43,484 bases of DNA from an uncultured Mycoplasmatota bacterium. Its GTDB lineage: Bacteria; Bacillota_I; Bacilli_A; RF39; UBA660. The first letter of the stretch is position 1, and the number at the start of each line of letters is the position of its first letter. Made by a program: the position numbers and the translations under genes. The notes under the pieces were generated by a model that saw only the letters and a list, made by a program, of their open reading frames with translations, searched no databases and was not told where the DNA came from. The stretch spans positions 1 to 43,484 of the forward strand of contig CAMEJC010000005.1 in the NCBI GenBank assembly GCA_945919295.1. The letters are read 5' to 3'. Positions 1 to 36,701 of the stretch are shown piece after piece.

Positions 1-301
1 AAAGTAAAACTAATAAGAAATGAATCTATAGGTTCATATTCATGGGATACATCTGCATCAGATATAAACTCAGGCTATGGAATAAATGAATGGAGTCAGG
101 CTGACTTAATGAAACTATTAAATCCCGGATATGAAAGTAATACTGACTTAAATAGTAGTGGCACTTCCATAACTGTAAATAATAGTTTATATTATAATAG
201 TGGTAGTGGTACTTGTTATAGTAATAGTAAAAATACAACCAAATCATGTGATTTTACAAGTACTGGAATAAAAAATGATACTACAAGAAATATGATCGCA
301 G
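1..301 (+). repeat. Paralogous DNA repeat, copy 1 (copy 2 at 15655-15955)
   Basis: Side-by-side reading shows long identical runs (for example around 107-150 against 15761-15804) with scattered, often synonymous, substitutions and a short variable patch near 220-245. Both copies are direct and in the same reading frame. They are about 15.6 kb apart, so they could recombine and delete or exchange gene ends. Confidence 0.8.
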
Positions 302-756
302 ATGCAACTTGGTATCTTGGAGGATGGCATGATACAAAAATATATTCAAATCAAATATATGAATATGAGAGAGGAACAAATGTAATAGTTAATCCAGGCG
401 ATGGAGTAACTAGGACAACAAGTTGGACAGGAAAAATAGCTTTAGCATATCCATCTGATGCTGGTTACACTGCTGATTTTACCAAGTGCAGTGATGCTTT
501 AATGTTTTATCATTTAAGTGATTGTTATAACAATTATTGGCTTTTTTCTACTTTATCTGCTTCTTTTTTAACGCCTTCAGATAATAATAATACGATTTGG
601 ATAGCGACTATGTACGGTTTTTATTCTGATGGTTTTAGATATGGTGAAGGAAATCCATATAGTCCTAGTTCTATTTATCCTACATTGTATTTATTAGATA
701 GTATTGCTATAGTAGGAGGTACTGGTTCAGAAGATAATCCATATAGATTAGGATAA
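1..756 (+). CDS. Surface protein, C-terminal part (5' end outside window); paralog of the gene at 14941-16410
   Basis: The frame is open from base 1, so only the last ~251 residues are present; the first in-window ATG (109) is internal. The first ~300 bases match 15655-15955 closely at DNA level and encode the same protein segment (INEWSQADLMKLLNPGYES and so on). The final ~75 residues differ: where the paralog has a G-V-R-P-V-L-N-L ending in GC-rich DNA, this copy has YPTLYLLDS in AT-rich DNA, then GTGSEDNPYRLG. By analogy with the paralog it is probably a secreted beta-rich surface protein with a C-type-lectin/DUF6273-like end; its signal peptide cannot be seen. A hairpin starts at the stop codon and a terminator follows. 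Family assignment is inference; the coding frame and the paralogy are directly visible. Confidence 0.85.
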   Translation, partial: KVKLIRNESIGSYSWDTSASDINSGYGINEWSQADLMKLLNPGYESNTDLNSSGTSITVNNSLYYNSGSGTCYSNSKNTTKSCDFTSTGIKNDTTRNMIADATWYLGGWHDTKIYSNQIYEYERGTNVIVNPGDGVTRTTSWTGKIALAYPSDAGYTADFTKCSDALMFYHLSDCYNNYWLFSTLSASFLTPSDNNNTIWIATMYGFYSDGFRYGEGNPYSPSSIYPTLYLLDSIAIVGGTGSEDNPYRLG

Positions 757-2908: not shown

Positions 2909-4099
2909 ATGATAGTAAAAATTGATAAATTATCTCATGATTTTAAGGGCATTACGAGAATTGATGATAAGGTTACTTTTGTTTCTGATACTATTCCAGG
3001 TGAAGTTATCGATATTAAAATAATTAATGAAAAAAAGAAAATTAATGAAGGGAAAGTTATTGGTTATATTGAAACTAGCGATGATAGAATTAGTGAAGTG
3101 TGTCCTTATTCTGATAAATGTGGTGGATGTGATATTGCATATATGAAATATTCTAAACAAATTCAATATAAAAAGGAAATTGTTTGTGATATTATGAAGA
3201 AATATGCTGGTATTAGTGTTAATCCTCAAATTATTTTTGATAATAATATATATGGATATAGAAATAAGATAACTTTACGGGTTTTTGATGGTAAATTATC
3301 TTTGATTGAAAATGGTAGTAATATTTTAGTTAATATTGATAAGTGTCTTTTGGTTAATAATAATATTAATAAAATTATTAATTTAATTAATGAGATGGAT
3401 CTTACTGGGGTTAATGAAGTGATTATTAAGGGTACTAAAGAGATAATGGTAATAGTTAGTGGTGATCTTGATAGTGATAAACTTATCGATAAATTAAAAT
3501 TAGATGTTGATAGTATTATTTTAAATGATAAAGTTATATATGGTAATGATTATATTATAATTAGTATAGGGAATTTTAATTATGCTATTTCTCCTAAATC
3601 TTTCTTTCAAATTAATACTAATATGATAGATAAGCTATATGATAAGATACATGATTATGCTGGTATTGGTAATTCTTTACTTGATTTATATTGTGGCGCA
3701 GGGACAATTGGTATTTATTTAGCGGATAATTTTGAAATGGTTAGAGGTATTGAAATAAATGAAGATGCGGTAAATAGTGCTAATTTAAATAAGAAAATAA
3801 ATGGTATTAAAAATATTTCTTTTGAATGTAAAAATGTTAATCAAATATCTAAAATAGATGTTGATGTTGTAGTAGTAGATCCTCCTAGAGGTGGATTAGA
3901 TAAAATAACTATTAATAAGTTATTAGATGGTAATTGTAAAAAGATTGTTTATGTATCTTGTAATCCTATTACTTTGGCTAGAGATATTAAATTACTTAAG
4001 GATAAATATAATTTTGAAGATATAACTTTATTTGATATGTTTCCTAATACTAAACATGTGGAATGTGTGACGGTACTACATAGAAAGAGCTTTGAATAG
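2909..4099 (+). CDS. rlmD: 23S rRNA (uracil-C5)-methyltransferase, RlmD/RlmCD (RumA) family
   Basis: 396 residues, somewhat short for the family (usually ~450). The N-terminal region fits a TRAM-like RNA-binding domain (1-55). Iron-sulfur cysteines are C65, C71, C74 (in CPYSDKCGGC) and C146. The C-terminal Rossmann methyltransferase has the SAM-binding LDLYCGAGTIG, the VVDPPRGGLD motif, the catalytic-cysteine motif VYVSCNP and a C-terminal HVECVTVL. The family methylates uracil-C5 in 23S rRNA (positions equivalent to E. coli U747/U1939) using SAM; Gram-positive members may do both sites. It stands alone between terminators. The start follows GTGATGAAGT, another distal-type SD. Confidence 0.92.
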   Translation: MIVKIDKLSHDFKGITRIDDKVTFVSDTIPGEVIDIKIINEKKKINEGKVIGYIETSDDRISEVCPYSDKCGGCDIAYMKYSKQIQYKKEIVCDIMKKYAGISVNPQIIFDNNIYGYRNKITLRVFDGKLSLIENGSNILVNIDKCLLVNNNINKIINLINEMDLTGVNEVIIKGTKEIMVIVSGDLDSDKLIDKLKLDVDSIILNDKVIYGNDYIIISIGNFNYAISPKSFFQINTNMIDKLYDKIHDYAGIGNSLLDLYCGAGTIGIYLADNFEMVRGIEINEDAVNSANLNKKINGIKNISFECKNVNQISKIDVDVVVVDPPRGGLDKITINKLLDGNCKKIVYVSCNPITLARDIKLLKDKYNFEDITLFDMFPNTKHVECVTVLHRKSFE

Positions 4100-4283
4100 C
4101 AATGATTTTAAAAAATTAAAGAAAGCATATTTTTGATAAAAAAATGGTGATTTTTTCTAAAAATTATTTAATAGGTTGTCAGAAGAGTATATGTTTCCAT
4201 ATGTTTTTTTACATTATATTTGAAATTAATTAAATTTTGGTGTACACAATATGACAGTTATTTTTATATTTGAATTAAATATA

Positions 4284-4312
4284 TGTACAAAAAACATATC
4301 ATGTGATATAAT
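4284..4312 (+). promoter_or_regulatory. Promoter of the tetR-ABC operon
   Basis: TGTACA (4284-4289), 17-base spacer, TATAAT (4307-4312). An inverted repeat ATATGT (4281-4286) / ACATAT (4294-4299) overlaps the -35 box. The 250-base upstream gap is otherwise AT-rich without a gene. Confidence 0.6.
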
Positions 4313-4324
4313 TAGATTAGGTAA

Positions 4325-4336
4325 TACAATATTGTA
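4325..4336 (+). promoter_or_regulatory. Candidate TetR operator
   Basis: Perfect 12-base palindrome TACAATATTGTA just downstream of the predicted transcription start and touching the AAGGAG ribosome site. This is a suitable place for autorepression by the regulator encoded next; binding is inference. Confidence 0.45.
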
Positions 4337-4349
4337 AGGAGAAAAAGAT

Positions 4350-4907
4350 ATGACAAATATATCAAAAAGTACTAAACAAGATATAATAAATGTTGCTTTT
4401 GATATTGTAAGAAAAAGTGGTATTGAAAAAGTAAGTGCTAGAGAAATTGCTAAAAGATTATCTTGTTCTATACAACCTGTATTTTATTATTTTAATAATA
4501 TGGATTCATTAAAGAAAGAATTGTTAAAGTATTCTTTGAATTATTATCAAAAATTTTTATTAGATGATAGTGGTAATCAACCTAATTATAAACAAATAGG
4601 TATGAATTATATTAAATTTGCAAAAGAAGAGTCTAATTTATTTAAGTTTATATTTATGGGGGATTATCATATAAAAGTAAAGAATTTTTCTGCTTTTGAT
4701 AATAGTTATACTAAAGTAGAAGAAACTATTTGTGAAGAATATAAAATAGTAAGTGATAAAGCAGAAAAAATTCATTTAAAAATGTGGATGTTTACTCATG
4801 GTATTGCTTGCTTAGTTGCTAATGGAACTATTGATTTTAGTGATAATGAAATTAAAATATTGTTAACTGAGGAATTTCAATTACTTATGAAAAATGAAAT
4901 AAAATAA
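4350..4907 (+). CDS. TetR/AcrR-family transcriptional regulator
   Basis: 185 residues, typical TetR length. The N-terminal helix-turn-helix spans about residues 12-52, with SAREIAKRLSCS and then PVFYYFNNMDSLKKEL, the family's recognition helix and following helix. The C-terminal ligand/dimer domain is unassigned. SD AAGGAG. It is the first gene of a probable operon with the ABC exporter genes that follow after 20 bases, so it probably represses this transporter and itself. The ligand cannot be predicted. Confidence 0.9.
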   Translation: MTNISKSTKQDIINVAFDIVRKSGIEKVSAREIAKRLSCSIQPVFYYFNNMDSLKKELLKYSLNYYQKFLLDDSGNQPNYKQIGMNYIKFAKEESNLFKFIFMGDYHIKVKNFSAFDNSYTKVEETICEEYKIVSDKAEKIHLKMWMFTHGIACLVANGTIDFSDNEIKILLTEEFQLLMKNEIK

Positions 4908-4927
4908 ATTATGAGAGGAAGGTTTAT

Positions 4928-5638
4928 ATGATAGAAATTAAAAATGTAAGTAAAACTTATAATGGTGAAAAGAAAGCATTAAATAATGTGAGTTTTAATA
5001 TTAATGATGGTGAAATTTTTGCTTTTATTGGACATAATGGTGCAGGAAAAACTACAATGATTAAGTCATTACTTGGAATATTGGATTTTGAAGAGGGGGA
5101 TATTTTAATAAATAATAAATCAATAAAAGAAAATCCAATTGATTGTAAACTTGATATGGCTTATGTTCCAGATAATCCTGATCTTTATGAGAATATGAGT
5201 GCAATTGAATTTATAAATTTTGTTTGTGATATGTATGATACTCCTACTTATGTAAGAGATGAAAATATTAAGAAGTATGCTACTATGTTTGAACTAGAGG
5301 ATAATTTAAATGATGATATATCTTCGTTTTCGCATGGAATGAAACAAAAAGTTGCTTTAATAGCAGCTCTTGCTCATGATCCTAAAGTACTAGTTATGGA
5401 TGAGCCTTTTGTAGGATTGGATCCTAAAGCTGTGTTTGATGTTAAAGAATTAATGAAAAAAATGGCAAAAGAGGGTAAAACATTATTTTTTTCTACACAT
5501 ATTTTAGATGTTGCTGAAAAACTCTGTGATAGGGTTGCTATTATTAAAAATGGAAATATTGTTAAAATAGGTAAAATGAAAGACATTAAAGGAGATTCTT
5601 CATTAGAAAAAGTTTTCCTTGAATTAGGAGAAGAATAA
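4928..5638 (+). CDS. ABC transporter ATP-binding protein
   Basis: 236 residues. Walker A GHNGAGKTT (near 35-43), signature SSFSHGMKQ, Walker B VLVMDEPFVGLDP, and a switch-loop histidine in FFSTHIL. Overall pattern fits the CcmA/ABC-2 exporter ATPase class. SD GAGAGGAAGG. Its stop overlaps the permease start by one base (TAATG), so the two form one exporter. Substrate unknown; the upstream TetR gene suggests an inducible export function such as a drug or peptide. Confidence 0.93.
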   Translation: MIEIKNVSKTYNGEKKALNNVSFNINDGEIFAFIGHNGAGKTTMIKSLLGILDFEEGDILINNKSIKENPIDCKLDMAYVPDNPDLYENMSAIEFINFVCDMYDTPTYVRDENIKKYATMFELEDNLNDDISSFSHGMKQKVALIAALAHDPKVLVMDEPFVGLDPKAVFDVKELMKKMAKEGKTLFFSTHILDVAEKLCDRVAIIKNGNIVKIGKMKDIKGDSSLEKVFLELGEE

Positions 5639-7242
5639 TGAAAACAATTTCTTTATTAAAAGCTGCTCTTAGTCAAGATATGAATATGTTTAAATATTCT
5701 GTTAAAAGAAATTCAAGTAAATTAAAAAAAATATTATTTCCAGTTTTTCTTTTTATTGCTGTATGTGTAAGTATTGGAACTTATGCTTATATGATTGGAA
5801 AAGAATTAGCTCCGTATCATTTAACTTATGTTATGTTAAGCATGTTTGTTATCATTGTTACTGTTATGTCTTTTATTGAGGGAATATATAAATCTCAGGG
5901 AATATTATTCGAAGCTAGAGATAATGATTTATTATTTTCTCTTCCTATTAAGAAATCACAAATATTGTTTGTAAGAATAGTTAAGTTGCTATTATTTCAA
6001 CTTATATACAATTTTATGTTTTTATTGCCTGCTTTTGTGATTTATATATATTTTGAAAAGCCAACAATTAATTTTTATATTAGTTCATTGCTTATGAGTT
6101 TGTTAATTCCTATTATTCCTACGGTTATTTCGAGTATACTAGGTTATATTATTAAATTATTATCTTCTAAATTTAAATCTAAAAAAATTATACAAACCTT
6201 ATTATCTAGTGTTGTATTTTTAGTAATTTTCTACTTATGTATGAATTTAGATGGATTTATACAGGGTATTGCTTCTAAAGCTACAAGTATAAATGAAATG
6301 TTGATTAAAATTTATTATCCATTAGGATTATATATAAATTTGATTGATAATTTTGAAATATTGGATTTATTAAAATTAATTTTAATAAATTTAATTCCTT
6401 TTGGTTTATTTGTTTTATTTGGATCAAAATCTTATTTTAAAATTATTTCTAATTCTAAATCAAGTGCAACTAAACATAAGATAAATAGTAAGAAAAAATT
6501 TATTATTAAGAGAAAACCTATTGTTTCACTTGTTAGAAAGGAATTAAAAAGATATTTTTCTTCTCCGATATATATGTTTAATACATCATTTGGATTGTTA
6601 TTATGTGTTGTTGTAACTATAATTCTATGTTTTAAAGGTCAAGGTGTTTTTGATATGATTTTGGCTGATTATGGTGTAAAAGGAGAATTATCTTTATCTA
6701 TAATATTTTATTTCTTTATTTTATTTGTATGTTCTATGACATCTATAACATCTTCGAGTGTTTCTTTAGAAGGCAAAACAATCAATATTACGAAAAGTTT
6801 ACCCATTGATGAAAAGACAATATTAAATTCAAAAATACTTACTTGTTATGCTATTGAACTTCCATTTATTTTGTTTGGATATATTCTGTTTTTTATTAAG
6901 TTTAAACCAAGTTTATTATATGTTGTATTAATAACTTTATTGGGTATTTTAATGATTTTGTTAAATGCTTGTATTGGTTTAATTACTAATTTAAAATATC
7001 CTAAAATGAATGCTATGAATGATACTGAGGTGGTAAAACAAAGTATGAGTTCGATGATTTCAATATTTATTGGTATGGGCATTTTTGTAGGTAGTATTTT
7101 AGTTGTTTGTTTTTTGAATAAGTATTTAAATTTGGATTTACTTTTAATTTTGCATATTATTTTTATTGCTATTATTAGTGTAATTTTATATATAATTTTA
7201 ATGAAAGTAGGTGTTAAGGAATATAGAAGAATAAATGTATAA
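5638..7242 (+). CDS. ABC-2 type exporter permease
   Basis: 534 residues with about 12 hydrophobic segments in two similar halves (about 35-250 and 310-530) separated by a Lys-rich cytoplasmic loop (~275-290, KHKINSKKKFIIKRK). Each half has a short motif resembling putative ABC exporter permeases: DLLFSLPIKKSQI near residue 98 and ITKSLPIDEKTI in the second half. It is the membrane partner of the ATPase it overlaps. No known family member can be named from sequence alone. Confidence 0.85.
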   Translation: MKTISLLKAALSQDMNMFKYSVKRNSSKLKKILFPVFLFIAVCVSIGTYAYMIGKELAPYHLTYVMLSMFVIIVTVMSFIEGIYKSQGILFEARDNDLLFSLPIKKSQILFVRIVKLLLFQLIYNFMFLLPAFVIYIYFEKPTINFYISSLLMSLLIPIIPTVISSILGYIIKLLSSKFKSKKIIQTLLSSVVFLVIFYLCMNLDGFIQGIASKATSINEMLIKIYYPLGLYINLIDNFEILDLLKLILINLIPFGLFVLFGSKSYFKIISNSKSSATKHKINSKKKFIIKRKPIVSLVRKELKRYFSSPIYMFNTSFGLLLCVVVTIILCFKGQGVFDMILADYGVKGELSLSIIFYFFILFVCSMTSITSSSVSLEGKTINITKSLPIDEKTILNSKILTCYAIELPFILFGYILFFIKFKPSLLYVVLITLLGILMILLNACIGLITNLKYPKMNAMNDTEVVKQSMSSMISIFIGMGIFVGSILVVCFLNKYLNLDLLLILHIIFIAIISVILYIILMKVGVKEYRRINV

Positions 7243-14160: not shown

Positions 14161-14925
14161 ATGGAAATATATATATATATAATGATTTTTATCTTTGGCA
14201 GTGTAATGGGTAGTTTTCTTAATGTTTTAGCAGTAAGACTATCTAATAATGAATCGATATTATGGCCTCGTAGTCATTGTCATAATTGTCAACATAAACT
14301 TAGGTGGTATGAATTAATTCCAGTTATATCATATGTAATTCAGAAAGGAAAGAGTCGCTGCTGCAGGACGAATATTCCTATTAGTTATTTGGTAATTGAA
14401 GTAGTAACAGGTATTCTTTATATGGTTTCTTATCATTCTTTTGGATTTGGTTATGAATTCATCATTAGTTTGATATTTATATCTGCTCTTATTACAATAA
14501 TTGTCAGTGATATTGAATATATGATAATATTAGATGAGATAATAGCCGTTTCTTGTATATTAATTATTATATTAGAACTAATATTTTTTGGACTTAATTA
14601 TACAGTTGATAAAATATTAGGAGGGATACTTGCATTTATTACAATGTATGTGATAAAATTAATAGGGGATAAGTTATTTAAGAGAGAATCAATGGGTGGA
14701 GGAGATATTAAATTAATGTTCTTATTTGGAATAGTAATTGGTTATCCTTTATCGATATGTGATATATTTTTAGCTACTTTTATTGCTTTTCCAGTGGCGA
14801 TTTATTTACTTTTTAGTAGGAAAGATAGTTTGATACCGTTTGGACCATTTTTAGCGATGGGGGCGATACTTATTCATATATCAAAAGTTGATATGAATAG
14901 TATAATTAATTTTTTGATTAAATAG
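14161..14925 (+). CDS. pilD: Prepilin peptidase / N-methyltransferase (PilD/ComC type)
   Basis: 254 residues, about seven or eight membrane segments. The N-terminal GSVMGSFLNVLAVRL is the family signature. The cytoplasmic loop has C40 and C43 (SHCHNCQ) but C67-C68 adjacent instead of the usual second CxxC. Catalytic aspartates are D117 (SDIEYMIILDE) and D182 (GGGDIK). It cleaves the leader of type IV prepilins on the cytoplasmic face. SD AGGTGATAGT. The surface protein gene follows after 15 bases with its own SD, so all three are probably one transcript. Confidence 0.93.
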   Translation: MEIYIYIMIFIFGSVMGSFLNVLAVRLSNNESILWPRSHCHNCQHKLRWYELIPVISYVIQKGKSRCCRTNIPISYLVIEVVTGILYMVSYHSFGFGYEFIISLIFISALITIIVSDIEYMIILDEIIAVSCILIIILELIFFGLNYTVDKILGGILAFITMYVIKLIGDKLFKRESMGGGDIKLMFLFGIVIGYPLSICDIFLATFIAFPVAIYLLFSRKDSLIPFGPFLAMGAILIHISKVDMNSIINFLIK

Positions 14926-14940
14926 AAAGGAAGAAATATT

Positions 14941-16410
14941 ATGACTAAGAAGATTCCAGTTAAAAATCTTTATTTAATTGCTATTATTTCAATTGGATTA
15001 ATAGGTTTAGCAGTAGGTTCTACTTATGCAATGTTTACTGCGACTGCTGAAATTAGCGATCCAATTAGTTTATCTTCTAATCTAACTTATACTAGTGATA
15101 TTGTGGAGACTATGGATGTTACGGTAGCACCTGGCGAAAATGAACAGGTAATGTTAGATATTACTAATAGTACTGATAGTACACTTAATTATGCTATTTG
15201 GTATATTGATGATAGCGGTGATTGTGATTTTGGTACGGAATTCTCAGTTTCAAGTTATTCTACATCTGGGAGTATAGCTTCTAATAATTCTTTTTCAGCT
15301 ATAGTATATATAAGAAATAATGGTACTAGTACAGTTACCGTTACTTTAGGTGTGTCTAGTAGTATTGATACTTTGGTATTAGCAGATAATATGATAATAC
15401 TTCCTAGTAGTGGGTTGCCCGCTCCTAAAAATTTAGTTAAAAGAATAGAATATTTATATACAAATGCTACTAAAACAGAAGTAACTAATAATAGTATAAC
15501 TTATAACTATGCTACTTCAGTTAATTTAATGGAAGATACCGCAGGTAATATCAGATACTATGGACCATCTCCTAATAACTATATATATTTTAATTGTGAA
15601 ACTTATCCAAGTACTAACTGTGAAATATGGAGAATAATCGGGATAGTAGATGGTAAAGTAAAACTAATAAGAAATGAATCTATAGGAGATTATTCCTGGG
15701 ATACATCTGCATCAAGTGTAAACTCAGGATGGGGAATAAATGAATGGAGTCAGGCTGATTTAATGAAACTATTAAATCCCGGATATGAAAGTAATACTGA
15801 CTTAAATAGCAGTGGCACATCGATAACCGTAAATAATAGTTTATATTATAATAGTGGTAGTGGTACCTGTTATAATGGACAAAGTAATGCAACTACATCA
15901 TGTGATTTTACAAGTACTGGAATAAAAAATGATACCACAAGAAATATGATCTCAGACTCTACCTACTATCTAGGAGGAGGAACAGATGCAATTATATATT
16001 CAAATGATGCATTAACCATGGAAAGAGGAACAACGGTATATTCTGGTTCAAGTGATGGCATAACAAGAACAACGAGTTTGACCGGAAAGATAGGACTAAT
16101 GTATCCTTCTGATTATGGATATGCCACCGACTTTACTAAATGTAGTAAAAATCTATATAATTATGATAGCAGTACTGATTCATATGCCTGTCGAAGTAAT
16201 GATTGGCTCTATAATAGTGCCGATCAGTGGTTATTGACCCCGTACTCGTCGAATGCCTATGTCGCGTGGCTTGTGAACTCGACGGGCAAAGTTGACATCT
16301 TCTGGGTCTTTGGTGCGTTTGGGGTTCGGCCAGTCTTGAATCTAGATTCTGTACTAGTTATCGGGTCAGGAATTGGTACAGAGAGTGATCCATATAGAAT
16401 TAGTGCTTAA
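14941..16410 (+). CDS. Large secreted surface protein with SipW-type signal and DGR-like variable C-terminus
   Basis: 489 residues. The N-terminus has a basic start, a hydrophobic stretch (~10-26) and GSTYAMFTATAE, the TasA/camelysin-like (SipW-dependent) signal pattern, with likely cleavage after A30. Residues 31-150 fit a camelysin-like beta-sandwich. Residues ~155-489 form a second region containing EIWRIIGIVDGKVKLI, INEWSQADLMKLLNPGY and a C-terminal W-x-V-N-S-T-G ... G-V-R-P-V-L-N-L segment like DUF6273/C-type-lectin ends. The last ~40 residues are in GC-rich DNA unlike the rest. SD AAAGGAAG; third gene of the pilC-pilD operon. It lacks a prepilin-type G-FxxxE leader, so it is not a standard pilin. 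Displayed ligand-binding protein is inference. Confidence 0.85.
   Translation: MTKKIPVKNLYLIAIISIGLIGLAVGSTYAMFTATAEISDPISLSSNLTYTSDIVETMDVTVAPGENEQVMLDITNSTDSTLNYAIWYIDDSGDCDFGTEFSVSSYSTSGSIASNNSFSAIVYIRNNGTSTVTVTLGVSSSIDTLVLADNMIILPSSGLPAPKNLVKRIEYLYTNATKTEVTNNSITYNYATSVNLMEDTAGNIRYYGPSPNNYIYFNCETYPSTNCEIWRIIGIVDGKVKLIRNESIGDYSWDTSASSVNSGWGINEWSQADLMKLLNPGYESNTDLNSSGTSITVNNSLYYNSGSGTCYNGQSNATTSCDFTSTGIKNDTTRNMISDSTYYLGGGTDAIIYSNDALTMERGTTVYSGSSDGITRTTSLTGKIGLMYPSDYGYATDFTKCSKNLYNYDSSTDSYACRSNDWLYNSADQWLLTPYSSNAYVAWLVNSTGKVDIFWVFGAFGVRPVLNLDSVLVIGSGIGTESDPYRISA
15655..15955 (+). repeat. Paralogous DNA repeat, copy 2 (copy 1 at 1-301)
   Basis: Same reading frame and near-identical DNA to the left edge of the window; see copy 1. 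Identity falls away downstream, where the two genes have unrelated 3' DNA composition. Confidence 0.8.
16219..16340 (+). other. Putative DGR variable region (VR)
   Basis: By hand count 65 of 120 bases are G or C here (54%), against about a quarter in the flanking genes, and only about 18 of 120 are A on the coding strand. It encodes residues ~427-467. Conserved-looking residues (A442, W443, V445, N446, S447, T448, G449, V451, W455, A459, G461-V-R-P-V) alternate with codons GCC, TAT, GTC, CTT, GAC, ATC, TTC, GTC, TTT, GGT, TTT, all NNY. That is what adenine-specific mutagenesis of AAY codons in a template repeat gives. DGR variable regions are typically at the 3' end of a C-type-lectin-fold gene, as here. 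No template repeat or reverse transcriptase is in the window. Confidence 0.6.
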
Positions 16411-16545
16411 GCACTAATTCGTAGTGTGGTAGGAAGTACTCGGCAAAAAAGGTCCCTCGAGCGCTTTAGGGCGAGGGTGACCCGGCGGAGCGTAAGCACG
16501 TCGTCATGCTGGTTAATCCCGCGTTAAGCGGGAAGATTAAAATTT
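16397..16545 (+). other. Palindrome over the stop codon plus GC-rich structured untranslated tract
   Basis: 16397-16420 is a perfect 24-base palindrome with the TAA stop at its centre. Further hairpins follow: GGTCCCTCG (from 16451) with CGAGGG...GACC (ending near 16482), and CCCGC (16518-16522) with GCGGG (16528-16532), extended by TTAAT/ATTAA. GC content is far above the genome and no credible ORF is present. A hairpin just after the variable region is a known requirement in characterised DGR targets. It also holds CGTAAGC ... GGTTAAT as in the tract after the left-edge paralog. Confidence 0.6.
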
Positions 16546-16552
16546 TAGAAAT

Positions 16553-32099: not shown

Positions 32100-35000
32100 A
32101 TGAAAAAAGGTTTGATGAAGTTTACTAAAGTCTTAGTACTTATAGCAATGATTATATCAGATTTAATGACACCTATTAAGGTACTTGCTAATGAAATAAC
32201 AGATAGAGATCCTGTTAAAGGTGATGTAGGTATTAATAATGAAGTAACAAATAATGGCAATAGTGCTACTGTCAGTGTTGGCTCTATAGAAACTGAAGGC
32301 GGAGTAAAAGTTACCAAAACAGTTAGTAAGACGGACACTGAAGGTAGATATAAAATTGAATTCAAAATTGAAGGAAAGGATGTTAAAACAAGTACTGAAG
32401 TTAATAAACCAGTATATGCCGTTGTAGTATTTGATAGATCTGGTAGTATGGCAAGTACTGAAACCGAAACTGATGAGTGTATCAGATATGGAGAAAGGCA
32501 TGGAGTACAATATTGTGCTGAATATGCGACAACATCTGATGAGAAATGGGAAAGTGCTGTACAAGGAGCAAAAGATTTTGCAAATACACTATTAAGTAAG
32601 ATTCCTACTGCTAATATAGCTCTAGTAGCTTTCTCAGGAAATTCTGATTACGATTATGATTATTGGGGAAATGAATATCTAAAAACAGATGCTAAAAAAA
32701 ATGATGATGCTACAGTATTAAGAAACTTCTCTAATACTAATTTGGATAGTACTAATTTTGGCTCAGCTAATGGAGGTACTAACTTACAAGCAGGATTATA
32801 TGAAGCAAATAAATTATTAAATGCTTCTAGTATTCCAAATGATGCTTATAAGTATGTTGTTGTAATTAGTGATGGACAGCCTACATTCTACTATGATAAT
32901 AAAGGTTATACACAAGGTGAAGGAAATAGTACTAATACTGACACATATAATGCTACGATAAGTATGGCAAATACTGTTAAGAATACTACTAAAGCTGAAG
33001 TATTTTCTATTGGATATATGTTACCTTCAGGTAAAGTATATGGAAATAAAACAGCTGCAGATATTTTAACTGAAGTGTCTTCACCAGATAAAGAAGGTTC
33101 AGAAGTAAAACACTATGTCGATGGAAAACCTGAAGATGTTGCAAATGCATTTACTAATATAGCAGAAGAAATGGGTACAGCAAATGCTGGAACTAAAGCT
33201 ATTTTAACAGATAATTTAGGTGGACAATTTACATTAACTAATGATAGTAGTACTAGAAGTTATATAAGTGAAGAAATACCTACTATTACTGAAGAAGGAA
33301 CTACTTTATCTTTCTATGTTGATATTGATCAAGATAGTGAAACAGGATGGTATAATACAAATGAAGGATTTAAATTAGATTATACTGACTATAAAGGCAA
33401 AAAACAAACTTTAGAATGTAGTGAAAATCCACAGGTTTATTGGGTACAAAATACTTATGATTATGTAGTTAATTACTATAAAGATAGTTTTGATAATAAT
33501 AATCTAATTGAAAGTGAAACTAGAAAGGCTCCTAATGGAACTATTATTAATGAAAGTAATGTAGAAAGAGATAAGTATCTTCCTACTGGTTATGAATTTA
33601 ATACTATTAATCCAAGTAGTATTACCATAACTAATGATGGAGTAGTAAAAGAAATAAATATACTATATACAATAAAGAAATTTAATTATGTAGTAAATTA
33701 TTATTATGATGATGTTTTGGATAATACTATAACTAAAACAGATATTCCTTATGGAACTGAAGTAAATTCTGTAGATTATTACTTAGAAGATACTGATATA
33801 AGAGAAGGATACATTTTAGATACAGTAAAATCTGATAGTAGTGTTTATACTATTACTGATAGTGATGTAATAATAAATATTTATTATGAAAAGAATAGGT
33901 ATGGATATTCAGTAAATTATTTCTTTAATAGTGAATATGGATTTACTACAAATAGTGAAGCAATTTATGGAGATAAGATTACTGCTCAAAGTAAATGGTT
34001 AAGTAGTGAAAGATTAATTGAAGAAAACAAAAGTGATTATTTCTTAGATCCAAATAAGAATGAAGAAAATAATAAAGAAATTACTATTGGTACGGATGAA
34101 GATAAAAATGTATTAGATATATACTATATTAATACTAACTTTGATAATACTACTGAAACAATTTCAAAAGTAACTAATACTGAGAAAGCAACTAGTTCAA
34201 GTCAAAAAGTTAGTTATAAAGTAACATATAATACATCTATCAATAATGTAAGAAAAGGTGACAAAGTAGTAGTAACTATTACTGATACACTACCAGGAAG
34301 TATTATAGAAAATGATAGTACTTTAAATGGAGGAGTATATAACTCTAATGATAATACTATTACTTGGACTTATACTTATATTATCAATGAATATCAAAAA
34401 GTTTATAGAGTAAGCAAAGAAATTAATTATATAGTTAAATATGAAAATTATTTAAACTTTAATGGAAATACTTTAGTAAATACTGCTAATGGTTATACTA
34501 CAGTAAGTCATGAAGGATTAGATGATAAAGTAACTGAAGGTAAAGAAGACAGTGCTAGTACTAGAGTAGAAATTAAAGGTACTGTAAATGTATACTTTAA
34601 AGATAATAATGATAATGATATTTCTTCTAAAGAAGAATTAGGAGAGAAATTAGCAGGTACTTCTTATACTACTACTGCTAAGAATATTACTGGTTATACT
34701 TTAGATGAAACTAAATTACCAAGTAATGCAAATGGTAATTATATTGAAGGTAATATTGATGTAGTATATTATTATACTAAGAATGATGGTGATATTACTG
34801 AAAACGAAGTTACTAAAATAGGACCTGATTATGTAAGCAGTATTAATGATACATTTGATTATACTCTTACTTACAAAGGTAAAGTAGAAAATTATGTAGG
34901 TAATTCAACTTTAACTCTTACAGATAGATTACCTTATGATGCTACTATTGTAGATATTGATGATAGATGTGAATTTAATAATAATACTATTACTTGTACT

Positions 35001-36701
35001 ACTGCTTATGTAGTTGATGGCACTAAAGAAATAGATGAGTCATTTAATATTTCTGTTAAATACAGTAATATTGTTTCTGATAAAATTGTTAATAGTGTTA
35101 GTTCAAACCTCGTATTGGAAAATAATAGTGCTACTGATGAAGATGAGATTGAAACTGAAGTATATAAAGGAACAGTGGTAGCAACATATAGAGCTGAAGA
35201 TGGAACAGTATTACATGAAAATGTAGTTACAACAGATTTAGCTGGTACTAAATATACAACTGAAGAAAAATCATTCTATGGCTATACATTGAAAGAAGTA
35301 ACAGGAGCAGATAAAGAAGGAATATATAAAGCTAATACTACTTTAGAAGTAAACTATATATATACTAAAAATATTGGTGATGTTACTGAAAATAATGTAA
35401 ATAAAGTACAAAATAATATAATTACAGATATTAATTCAGAGTATCATTATGTATTAAGTTATAGTGGTAAAGTGGAAAACTATGTAGGAGATGTAACACT
35501 TGAACTTACTGATACATTACCATATAATGCAGAAATTATATCAAAAGATGATAAGTGTGTAGTAACTGGAAATACTATAGTATGTACAGATACATATACA
35601 ATAGATGAAAATCATCAAGTAATTAATGCTACATTTGATATAGTATTAAAATATATTAATGTTGGAAGTGAAGTAAAAAACATTGTTAATTCAAAATTAA
35701 TATATGGAAATAAAGTAGAAGAAGATACTGATGAAGTAATCGATACAATACCAAGTGGTAAAGTAATAGCTATCTATATTACTGATGAAGAAGTAAAATT
35801 ACATGATGATGTAACAACAACTGACTTAGTAGGTAAAGAATATACTACTTTAGAAAAAGATTTCTTTGGATATACTTTAAAAGAAGTAAAAGGTAATGAA
35901 ACAGGTACCTATACAGAAGAAACTATATATGTAGAATATATCTATACTAAAAATGCTGGAGATATTGAAAATCCTATTACTGAAAAGACAGGACCAGATA
36001 CCATTGAAAGTATCGATGGTGTATTTGAATATAATATTACTGCATCAGGATCTGTTAAAGAATATGTAGGTAATGTTAAATTAACTGTTAGTGATATTCT
36101 TCCATACGCTATTGATGAAGGAAAATCTGTATTAGATAATAGATGTAAATATGACGGTAATAATACTATTACTTGTGAAGTAGAATATGAAGATATTACT
36201 GAAGAAGATTATACTAATGGAGTTTATAATGTTAATGAAGTATTTAACTTAAAACTTGTATTTATTGGTATTGATTCAAATACAGTAATTAATAAAGCTA
36301 CATCAACAATTGATTTAGATGGTAATAAAATAACTACTGAAGATGAAAAAGAAACTGAAGTATATAAAGGAACAGTTGTAGCAACATATAAAGATACAGA
36401 TGGAAATAAGTTACATGAAGATGTTATTACTACTGACTTAGTAGGTACTGATTATGCTACAGAGGAGAAAGATTTCTTTGGATATAGTTTAAAAGAAGTA
36501 AAAGGTAATGAAACAGGTACTTATACAGAAGAAACTATATATGTAGAATATATTTATACTAAAACTACTGGTACGGGTGATATTGAAGAATTACCTCCTC
36601 AAACTGGAGTCAATGCAAATAATTTATATGAATACTTATTGCTAATTAGTATGATATTACTATCATTAAAAGGTTATAAGAAAGTAAAAGAGACTTTATA
36701 A
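32100..36701 (+). CDS. LPxTG-like wall-anchored vWA adhesin with MucBP-type repeats
   Basis: 1533 residues. Signal peptide (1-30, cleavage near VLA-N). A von Willebrand factor A domain (~104-355) has an intact MIDAS: D112-R-S-G-S116, T227, D258. C127 and C139 sit in an insertion right after the first MIDAS loop and may form a disulfide. From ~455 come several MucBP-like modules, then from ~826 repeats alternating a KGTVVATY ... EVxYxYTK module with an ENYVGxxxLxLTDxLPY beta-sandwich of the isopeptide/DUF11 type. Sorting signal: LPPQTG at 1498-1503, hydrophobic helix, tail KKVKETL. Probably binds host glycoprotein or mucin. SD AGGAGGG. It resembles pilus tip or backbone adhesins. Confidence 0.9.
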   Translation: MKKGLMKFTKVLVLIAMIISDLMTPIKVLANEITDRDPVKGDVGINNEVTNNGNSATVSVGSIETEGGVKVTKTVSKTDTEGRYKIEFKIEGKDVKTSTEVNKPVYAVVVFDRSGSMASTETETDECIRYGERHGVQYCAEYATTSDEKWESAVQGAKDFANTLLSKIPTANIALVAFSGNSDYDYDYWGNEYLKTDAKKNDDATVLRNFSNTNLDSTNFGSANGGTNLQAGLYEANKLLNASSIPNDAYKYVVVISDGQPTFYYDNKGYTQGEGNSTNTDTYNATISMANTVKNTTKAEVFSIGYMLPSGKVYGNKTAADILTEVSSPDKEGSEVKHYVDGKPEDVANAFTNIAEEMGTANAGTKAILTDNLGGQFTLTNDSSTRSYISEEIPTITEEGTTLSFYVDIDQDSETGWYNTNEGFKLDYTDYKGKKQTLECSENPQVYWVQNTYDYVVNYYKDSFDNNNLIESETRKAPNGTIINESNVERDKYLPTGYEFNTINPSSITITNDGVVKEINILYTIKKFNYVVNYYYDDVLDNTITKTDIPYGTEVNSVDYYLEDTDIREGYILDTVKSDSSVYTITDSDVIINIYYEKNRYGYSVNYFFNSEYGFTTNSEAIYGDKITAQSKWLSSERLIEENKSDYFLDPNKNEENNKEITIGTDEDKNVLDIYYINTNFDNTTETISKVTNTEKATSSSQKVSYKVTYNTSINNVRKGDKVVVTITDTLPGSIIENDSTLNGGVYNSNDNTITWTYTYIINEYQKVYRVSKEINYIVKYENYLNFNGNTLVNTANGYTTVSHEGLDDKVTEGKEDSASTRVEIKGTVNVYFKDNNDNDISSKEELGEKLAGTSYTTTAKNITGYTLDETKLPSNANGNYIEGNIDVVYYYTKNDGDITENEVTKIGPDYVSSINDTFDYTLTYKGKVENYVGNSTLTLTDRLPYDATIVDIDDRCEFNNNTITCTTAYVVDGTKEIDESFNISVKYSNIVSDKIVNSVSSNLVLENNSATDEDEIETEVYKGTVVATYRAEDGTVLHENVVTTDLAGTKYTTEEKSFYGYTLKEVTGADKEGIYKANTTLEVNYIYTKNIGDVTENNVNKVQNNIITDINSEYHYVLSYSGKVENYVGDVTLELTDTLPYNAEIISKDDKCVVTGNTIVCTDTYTIDENHQVINATFDIVLKYINVGSEVKNIVNSKLIYGNKVEEDTDEVIDTIPSGKVIAIYITDEEVKLHDDVTTTDLVGKEYTTLEKDFFGYTLKEVKGNETGTYTEETIYVEYIYTKNAGDIENPITEKTGPDTIESIDGVFEYNITASGSVKEYVGNVKLTVSDILPYAIDEGKSVLDNRCKYDGNNTITCEVEYEDITEEDYTNGVYNVNEVFNLKLVFIGIDSNTVINKATSTIDLDGNKITTEDEKETEVYKGTVVATYKDTDGNKLHEDVITTDLVGTDYATEEKDFFGYSLKEVKGNETGTYTEETIYVEYIYTKTTGTGDIEELPPQTGVNANNLYEYLLLISMILLSLKGYKKVKETL
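35859..35951 (+). repeat. 93-base direct repeat inside the adhesin gene, copy 1 (copy 2 at 36471-36563)
   Basis: The two blocks differ at only a few bases (for example C/T in GGTACC against GGTACT) and encode FFGYxLKEVKGNETG and on. They are 612 bases apart, an in-frame distance, so recombination would remove exactly one repeat module. Confidence 0.8.
36471..36563 (+). repeat. 93-base direct repeat inside the adhesin gene, copy 2
   Basis: Partner of the block at 35859-35951. Confidence 0.8.

Follow-up and report, generated by a model that had tools for sequence, protein, structure and literature searches.

The window (the whole stretch of 43,484 nucleotides analysed here) belongs to genome G000, a 1.27-Mb assembly in 77 contigs that is 96.5% complete. 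It carries a target-like gene encoding a 489-aa protein, preceded by genes for a prepilin peptidase and a type II secretion F-type protein. The locus lies between the prepilin peptidase gene and a gyrase/topoisomerase A gene. The features of the locus are as follows.

14161-14925, + strand: neighbouring prepilin peptidase gene (A24; Pfam PF06750 and PF01478).
14941-16410, + strand: target-like gene of 489 aa, an ORF with an N-terminal hydrophobic export signal and a C-terminal DUF6273 domain.
16240-16341, + strand: putative variable region (VR), G+C-rich and A-poor, with NNY-type variable codons and a fixed scaffold.
16342-16396, + strand: nearly invariant coding tail, 89-100% identical between four paralogues.
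16397-16420, no strand assigned: perfect 24-bp palindrome whose 4-nt loop, closed by a 10-bp stem, holds the TAA stop; candidate homing hairpin or cruciform.
16421-16545, + strand: conserved structured noncoding element with the motif GGTAGGAAGTACT and further predicted hairpins.

The N-terminus of the 489-aa protein may be of the SipW export-signal type; NCBIfam gave no hit. A profile search of solved structures with the window protein gave no match, and an AlphaFold2 model built from a 10-sequence alignment was unusable (mean pLDDT 36). Residues 401-470 match DUF6273 (Pfam PF19789; E 7.7e-6, 26.3 bits against a cut-off of 23.5). DUF6273 is reported to be a C-lectin-like domain that presents the VR as a surface hairpin (PMC10743442), and VRs have been placed at its C-terminus (PMC11792537). 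Elsewhere in the window, a possible mucus-binding adhesin of 1533 aa, containing VWA and MucBP domains, is encoded at 32100-36701.

The first-pass annotation had described an abrupt rise in G+C with few A near the end of the gene, and direct counting confirmed it. The tract 16219-16345 has 53.5% G+C and 15.7% A, compared with 31.8% and 35.8% in the preceding part of the same gene (14941-16200) and with 26.7% G+C in the whole window. When the window was scanned in 100-bp frames with a step of 10, G+C of at least 52% was reached only in the tract and in the adjoining noncoding stretch 16401-16550. Adenine occupies 4% of third codon positions in the tract core versus 32% upstream (Fisher p = 0.0009), and the VR itself has a G+C fraction of 0.56 and an A fraction of 0.13. 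The VR scaffold follows the pattern TCG...GCGTGG..TGT...GGGGTTCGGCCAGTC, with the annotated scaffold end G-V-R-P-V-L present at 16321-16338. The placement of the tract at the 3' end of the gene, followed by a palindrome, was likewise correct (ORF 14941-16410, palindrome 16397-16420). The codons listed as variable were rightly said to end in C or T, but the list was incomplete: codons 435, 438, and 446 also vary among paralogues. Codon 456 (GTC), which had been included, is probably scaffold, and codon 450 (AAA) is an exception to the C/T-ending rule in the window copy.

At least 8 further relatives of the window protein are encoded in G000. Three of these paralogues (on contigs C24 and C44 and at C15 18761-20260) have the VR scaffold and the tract that follows it in common with the window gene. 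The end of the member at C15 12328-13287 is moderately rich in G+C but built on a different scaffold, and the negative controls C5a (window 1-753), C49, and C33 are without the compositional signature of the VR. The segment at window 1-753 is the C-terminal part of another family member with no G+C-rich end, and the contig begins within it. On C15, locus L025 (3372-6100 of that locus) contains genes, transposase-like by eye, between two family members.

The VRs of C24 and C44 align without gaps and differ at 18 sites. Codon positions 1 and 2 account for 17 of these 18 differences but for 21 of the 49 found upstream (Fisher p = 1.7e-4), and the sole third-position change falls in a serine codon and is explicable by TCA in the template. 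All four bases occur at the variable sites in similar numbers (11 G, 10 T, 9 A, 6 C), and the ratio of transitions to transversions is 4/14 in the VR versus 19/21 upstream (p = 0.09). Placing A at each differing site yields a reconstructed template reading P-N-S-S-D-T-T-N-A-W-N-V-F-S-S-G-N-V-Y-N-G-N-D-V-C-N-A-N, which is N-rich, as in DGR templates. Immediately past the VR the two genes return abruptly to 97-100% identity, with 1 difference in 87 nt of the tail. Variation confined to NNY codons is clear for this pair and partial for the window copy. The pairwise identity of the window copy with C24 and C44 is 0.57-0.69 in the VR and 0.91-1.00 immediately after it; its VR is one codon shorter, and third-position differences occur (for example GTG/GTC and ACG/TCC). 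Because of the codon gap, these third-position differences, and the AAA at codon 450, a single template common to the window copy and C24/C44 would be insufficient. Since adenine mutagenesis poorly explains the differences from C24/C44, and given the one-codon gap, the window copy would use another template or be a relic.

The near-invariance past the VR extends over ~210 bp in the four G000 copies, with 89-100% identity depending on the pair, and includes the structured noncoding element. This element, ~125 bp long and lying behind the palindrome, shows 86-100% identity among the four copies, and its RNA folding beats that of shuffled sequences (z -3.0 to -4.3); no Rfam family matches it. A search for its motif in 386 family genomes and the genome collection returned only the four G000 copies and one in the genome G004. 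Six matches to the motif in viral contigs were rejected, as they lie in or beside unrelated frames (GIY-YIG-like and HTH-like by eye) and have neither VR nor hairpins. The palindrome reads GAATTAGTGC-TTAA-GCACTAATTC. By itself it argues little, because the window contains as many as 8 perfect 10-bp hairpins, versus 0-4 in ten simulations.

The VR scaffold was found again in a second species, represented by G004, an uncultured Tenericutes MAG; the comparison thus covered a single genome for each species. Three VR-bearing relatives there (C2, C23, and C61) have scaffold codons in common: GCG-TGG and CCA-GTC, for example, are kept, the residues between them differ, and TCG-TCC-GGC is kept in two of the three genes. 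A palindrome of other sequence, GGTTATCTGT-TTCATA-ACAGATAACC, occupies the position equivalent to that of the window palindrome. That the palindrome keeps its place but not its sequence in this second species is the stronger point in its favor. The C2 gene of G004 also has an equivalent noncoding element, with an identical GGTAGGAAGTACT motif and hairpins of other sequence. The C23 gene has the palindrome without the element, so a VR can exist without the element.

G000 contains at least one complete DGR, which is unlinked to the window gene and acts on another gene.

L022 (G000 C12) 3387-7138, - strand: complete DGR (RT, Avd-like ORF, template, and a local target).

Its RT (445 aa) carries IGCLSNQ, close to the DGR motif, and is the sole DGR RT found in the G000 assembly. 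Neither match of the 115-aa Avd-like ORF, to NF033474 (E 1.4e-7) or to bAvd (E 6.9e-6), reaches the curated cut-off. The template is rich in AAY codons and lies 321 bp downstream of the VR; 21 of the 24 differences between them fall at template adenines. A hairpin with a 9-bp stem, CGCGGGAAA-CCCT-TTTCCCGCG, is located between the target gene and the template. Taken as a positive control, the C12 VR has a G+C fraction of 0.60 and an A fraction of 0.11, lies near the 3' end of its gene, and ends in GVRPV, as does the window VR.

Other reverse transcriptases were also considered. The RT on C16 was rejected as a DGR RT, being a retron RT (Ec107-like); at L021 (3890-5921, - strand) it follows an ATPase resembling PtuA/AriA, a possible defence system. 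No DGR RT was recognisable in G004, where the only candidate was of the AbiP2 type and was rejected. Another genome of the genus, G005, has avd, template, RT, and target in a single cassette, with 9 mismatches over 71 bp, all adenine-only; its avd is assigned from position and length alone. On contig C61 of G005 (L072/L046), the Avd-like ORF, an AAY-rich template, the RT with a canonical LGNWSSQ motif, and the target occur together.

The window gene had been proposed as a remote target of a DGR elsewhere in the genome, to be checked by finding its template beside an RT and avd. A DGR does exist, on C12, but its link to the window VR was not borne out by a template. Scaffold patterns (at most 3 mismatches in 21 bases or 2 in 15) and a translated-template search of the 77 G000 contigs revealed no template for the window VR, every hit being one of the four VR genes or a more distant paralogue. 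The C12 template encodes a different scaffold (FAGGNANVDNVNNDG...); it was rejected as donor after the window VR, compared without gaps along the C12 locus and with mismatches accepted at adenines only, gave no match. The search of G004 likewise brought up no template, only the three VR genes of that genome, and neither VR scaffold patterns nor protein relatives were found in viral contigs, phages, or plasmids. The missing template is not decisive, because assembly completeness is 96.5% and each of four contigs (C24, C44, C5, and C6) ends within a member of the window gene family. These same contig ends make the loss of a near-identical template during assembly plausible.

Taken together, we consider it likely that the segment at ~16240-16341 is a DGR-type variable region, which is the best reading of the locus. 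The compositional break, the NNY variation confined to this segment in two paralogues, the recurrence of the scaffold in G004, and the complete DGR on C12 with its other target are direct observations. The proposal that the gene is a DGR target gained support from the paralogues, from G004, from the C12 positive control, and from DUF6273, and fell short at the template match. The VR probably encodes the ligand-facing end of the DUF6273 (C-type-lectin-like) domain of an exported protein, and the gene would be one of about four related targets scattered over the genome. An error-prone reverse transcriptase would copy an AAY-rich template repeat, randomising its adenines, and the cDNA would replace the 3' end of the gene. 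The G+C-rich scaffold would direct this replacement, probably together with the palindrome just downstream, which may serve as a homing hairpin. We infer that the window VR has, or once had, a template that lies outside the assembled contigs. A second template could possibly be served by the C12 RT, and diversification at the window VR may be ongoing.

Several other explanations were weighed. That neither G000 nor G004 yields a template, that G004 is without a recognisable DGR RT, and that the window and C15b copies differ in ways adenine mutagenesis hardly explains would all suit relic VRs, left to drift and be shuffled among paralogues after the lineage had lost its DGR template and RT. We regard this as unlikely: the G+C-rich scaffold is undrifted toward the surrounding 27-32% G+C, the clean pattern of differences between C44 and C24 points to recent rewriting, and G000 has an intact-looking DGR with avd. 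Alternatively, the pattern might have arisen with no retroelement, through import of a G+C-rich lectin segment that was then duplicated and recombined among the paralogues, with positive selection acting on surface residues. Such a history, to which we give little credence, would accord with the presence of at least 9 related genes in the genome, some near transposase-like genes, with the foreign-looking G+C content of the scaffold codons, and with a post-VR tract that appears homogenised between copies. However, selection alone would not hold third positions at C or T with four bases at positions 1 and 2, and it does not predict the abrupt 97-100% identity of C44 and C24 past the VR.

Diversification of the window gene by the C12 DGR from its known template is extremely improbable, since the template scaffold differs and the adenine-only scan was without a match, even though no other DGR RT was found in the assembly and both VRs end in GVRPV. 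It is rather doubtful that the ~210-bp invariant tract, made up of coding tail, palindrome, and structured element, is a dedicated homing module for dispersed DGR targets, with the template on a separate mobile element; if so, it would represent a trans-acting DGR arrangement with a previously undescribed nucleic-acid structure.

Should the DGR reading be right, this uncultured bacterium would have at least one complete DGR together with scattered lectin-like surface genes whose template is missing from the assembly. Remote- and multi-target DGRs, for which those of Treponema denticola reportedly provide a comparison system, resemble the window set in their scattered surface-protein genes, VRs at 3' ends, and adenine-type variation. 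They differ in that the template and RT for the window VR set were not found in the G000 assembly. Surveys of DGRs based on RTs miss remote targets (Roux et al. 2021, PMC8144416). DUF6273 DGR targets have been described in gut phages, including tentaclins (PMC10743442) and targets in Faecalibacterium prophages (PMC11792537). The window gene is like the Faecalibacterium prophage targets in having its VR at the C-terminus of DUF6273. In contrast to the gut-phage targets, it is chromosomal, has an export signal, lies beside a prepilin peptidase gene, and does not encode a phage receptor-binding protein; no relative of its product was found in phage records.

Efficient homing in BPP-1 depends on a hairpin downstream of the VR, in which the structure of the stem matters and its sequence does not (PMC3240598). 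BPP-1 and the window have in common a post-VR inverted repeat with the stop codon, a 10-bp stem, and a 4-nt loop, the position being kept and the sequence not. Between the window and G004 the stem is kept and its sequence changed, which fits the BPP-1 requirements (PMC3240598). The window palindrome differs from phage DGR hairpins in its A/T-rich stem, in an NTAA loop instead of GRNA, and in its distance from the VR (~55 bp, against a range of 4-34 bp in phages). Unlike BPP-1, the window has an additional 125-bp structured element after the palindrome, and the conserved post-VR tract gives an experimental way into the question of how a single template might serve many dispersed loci.
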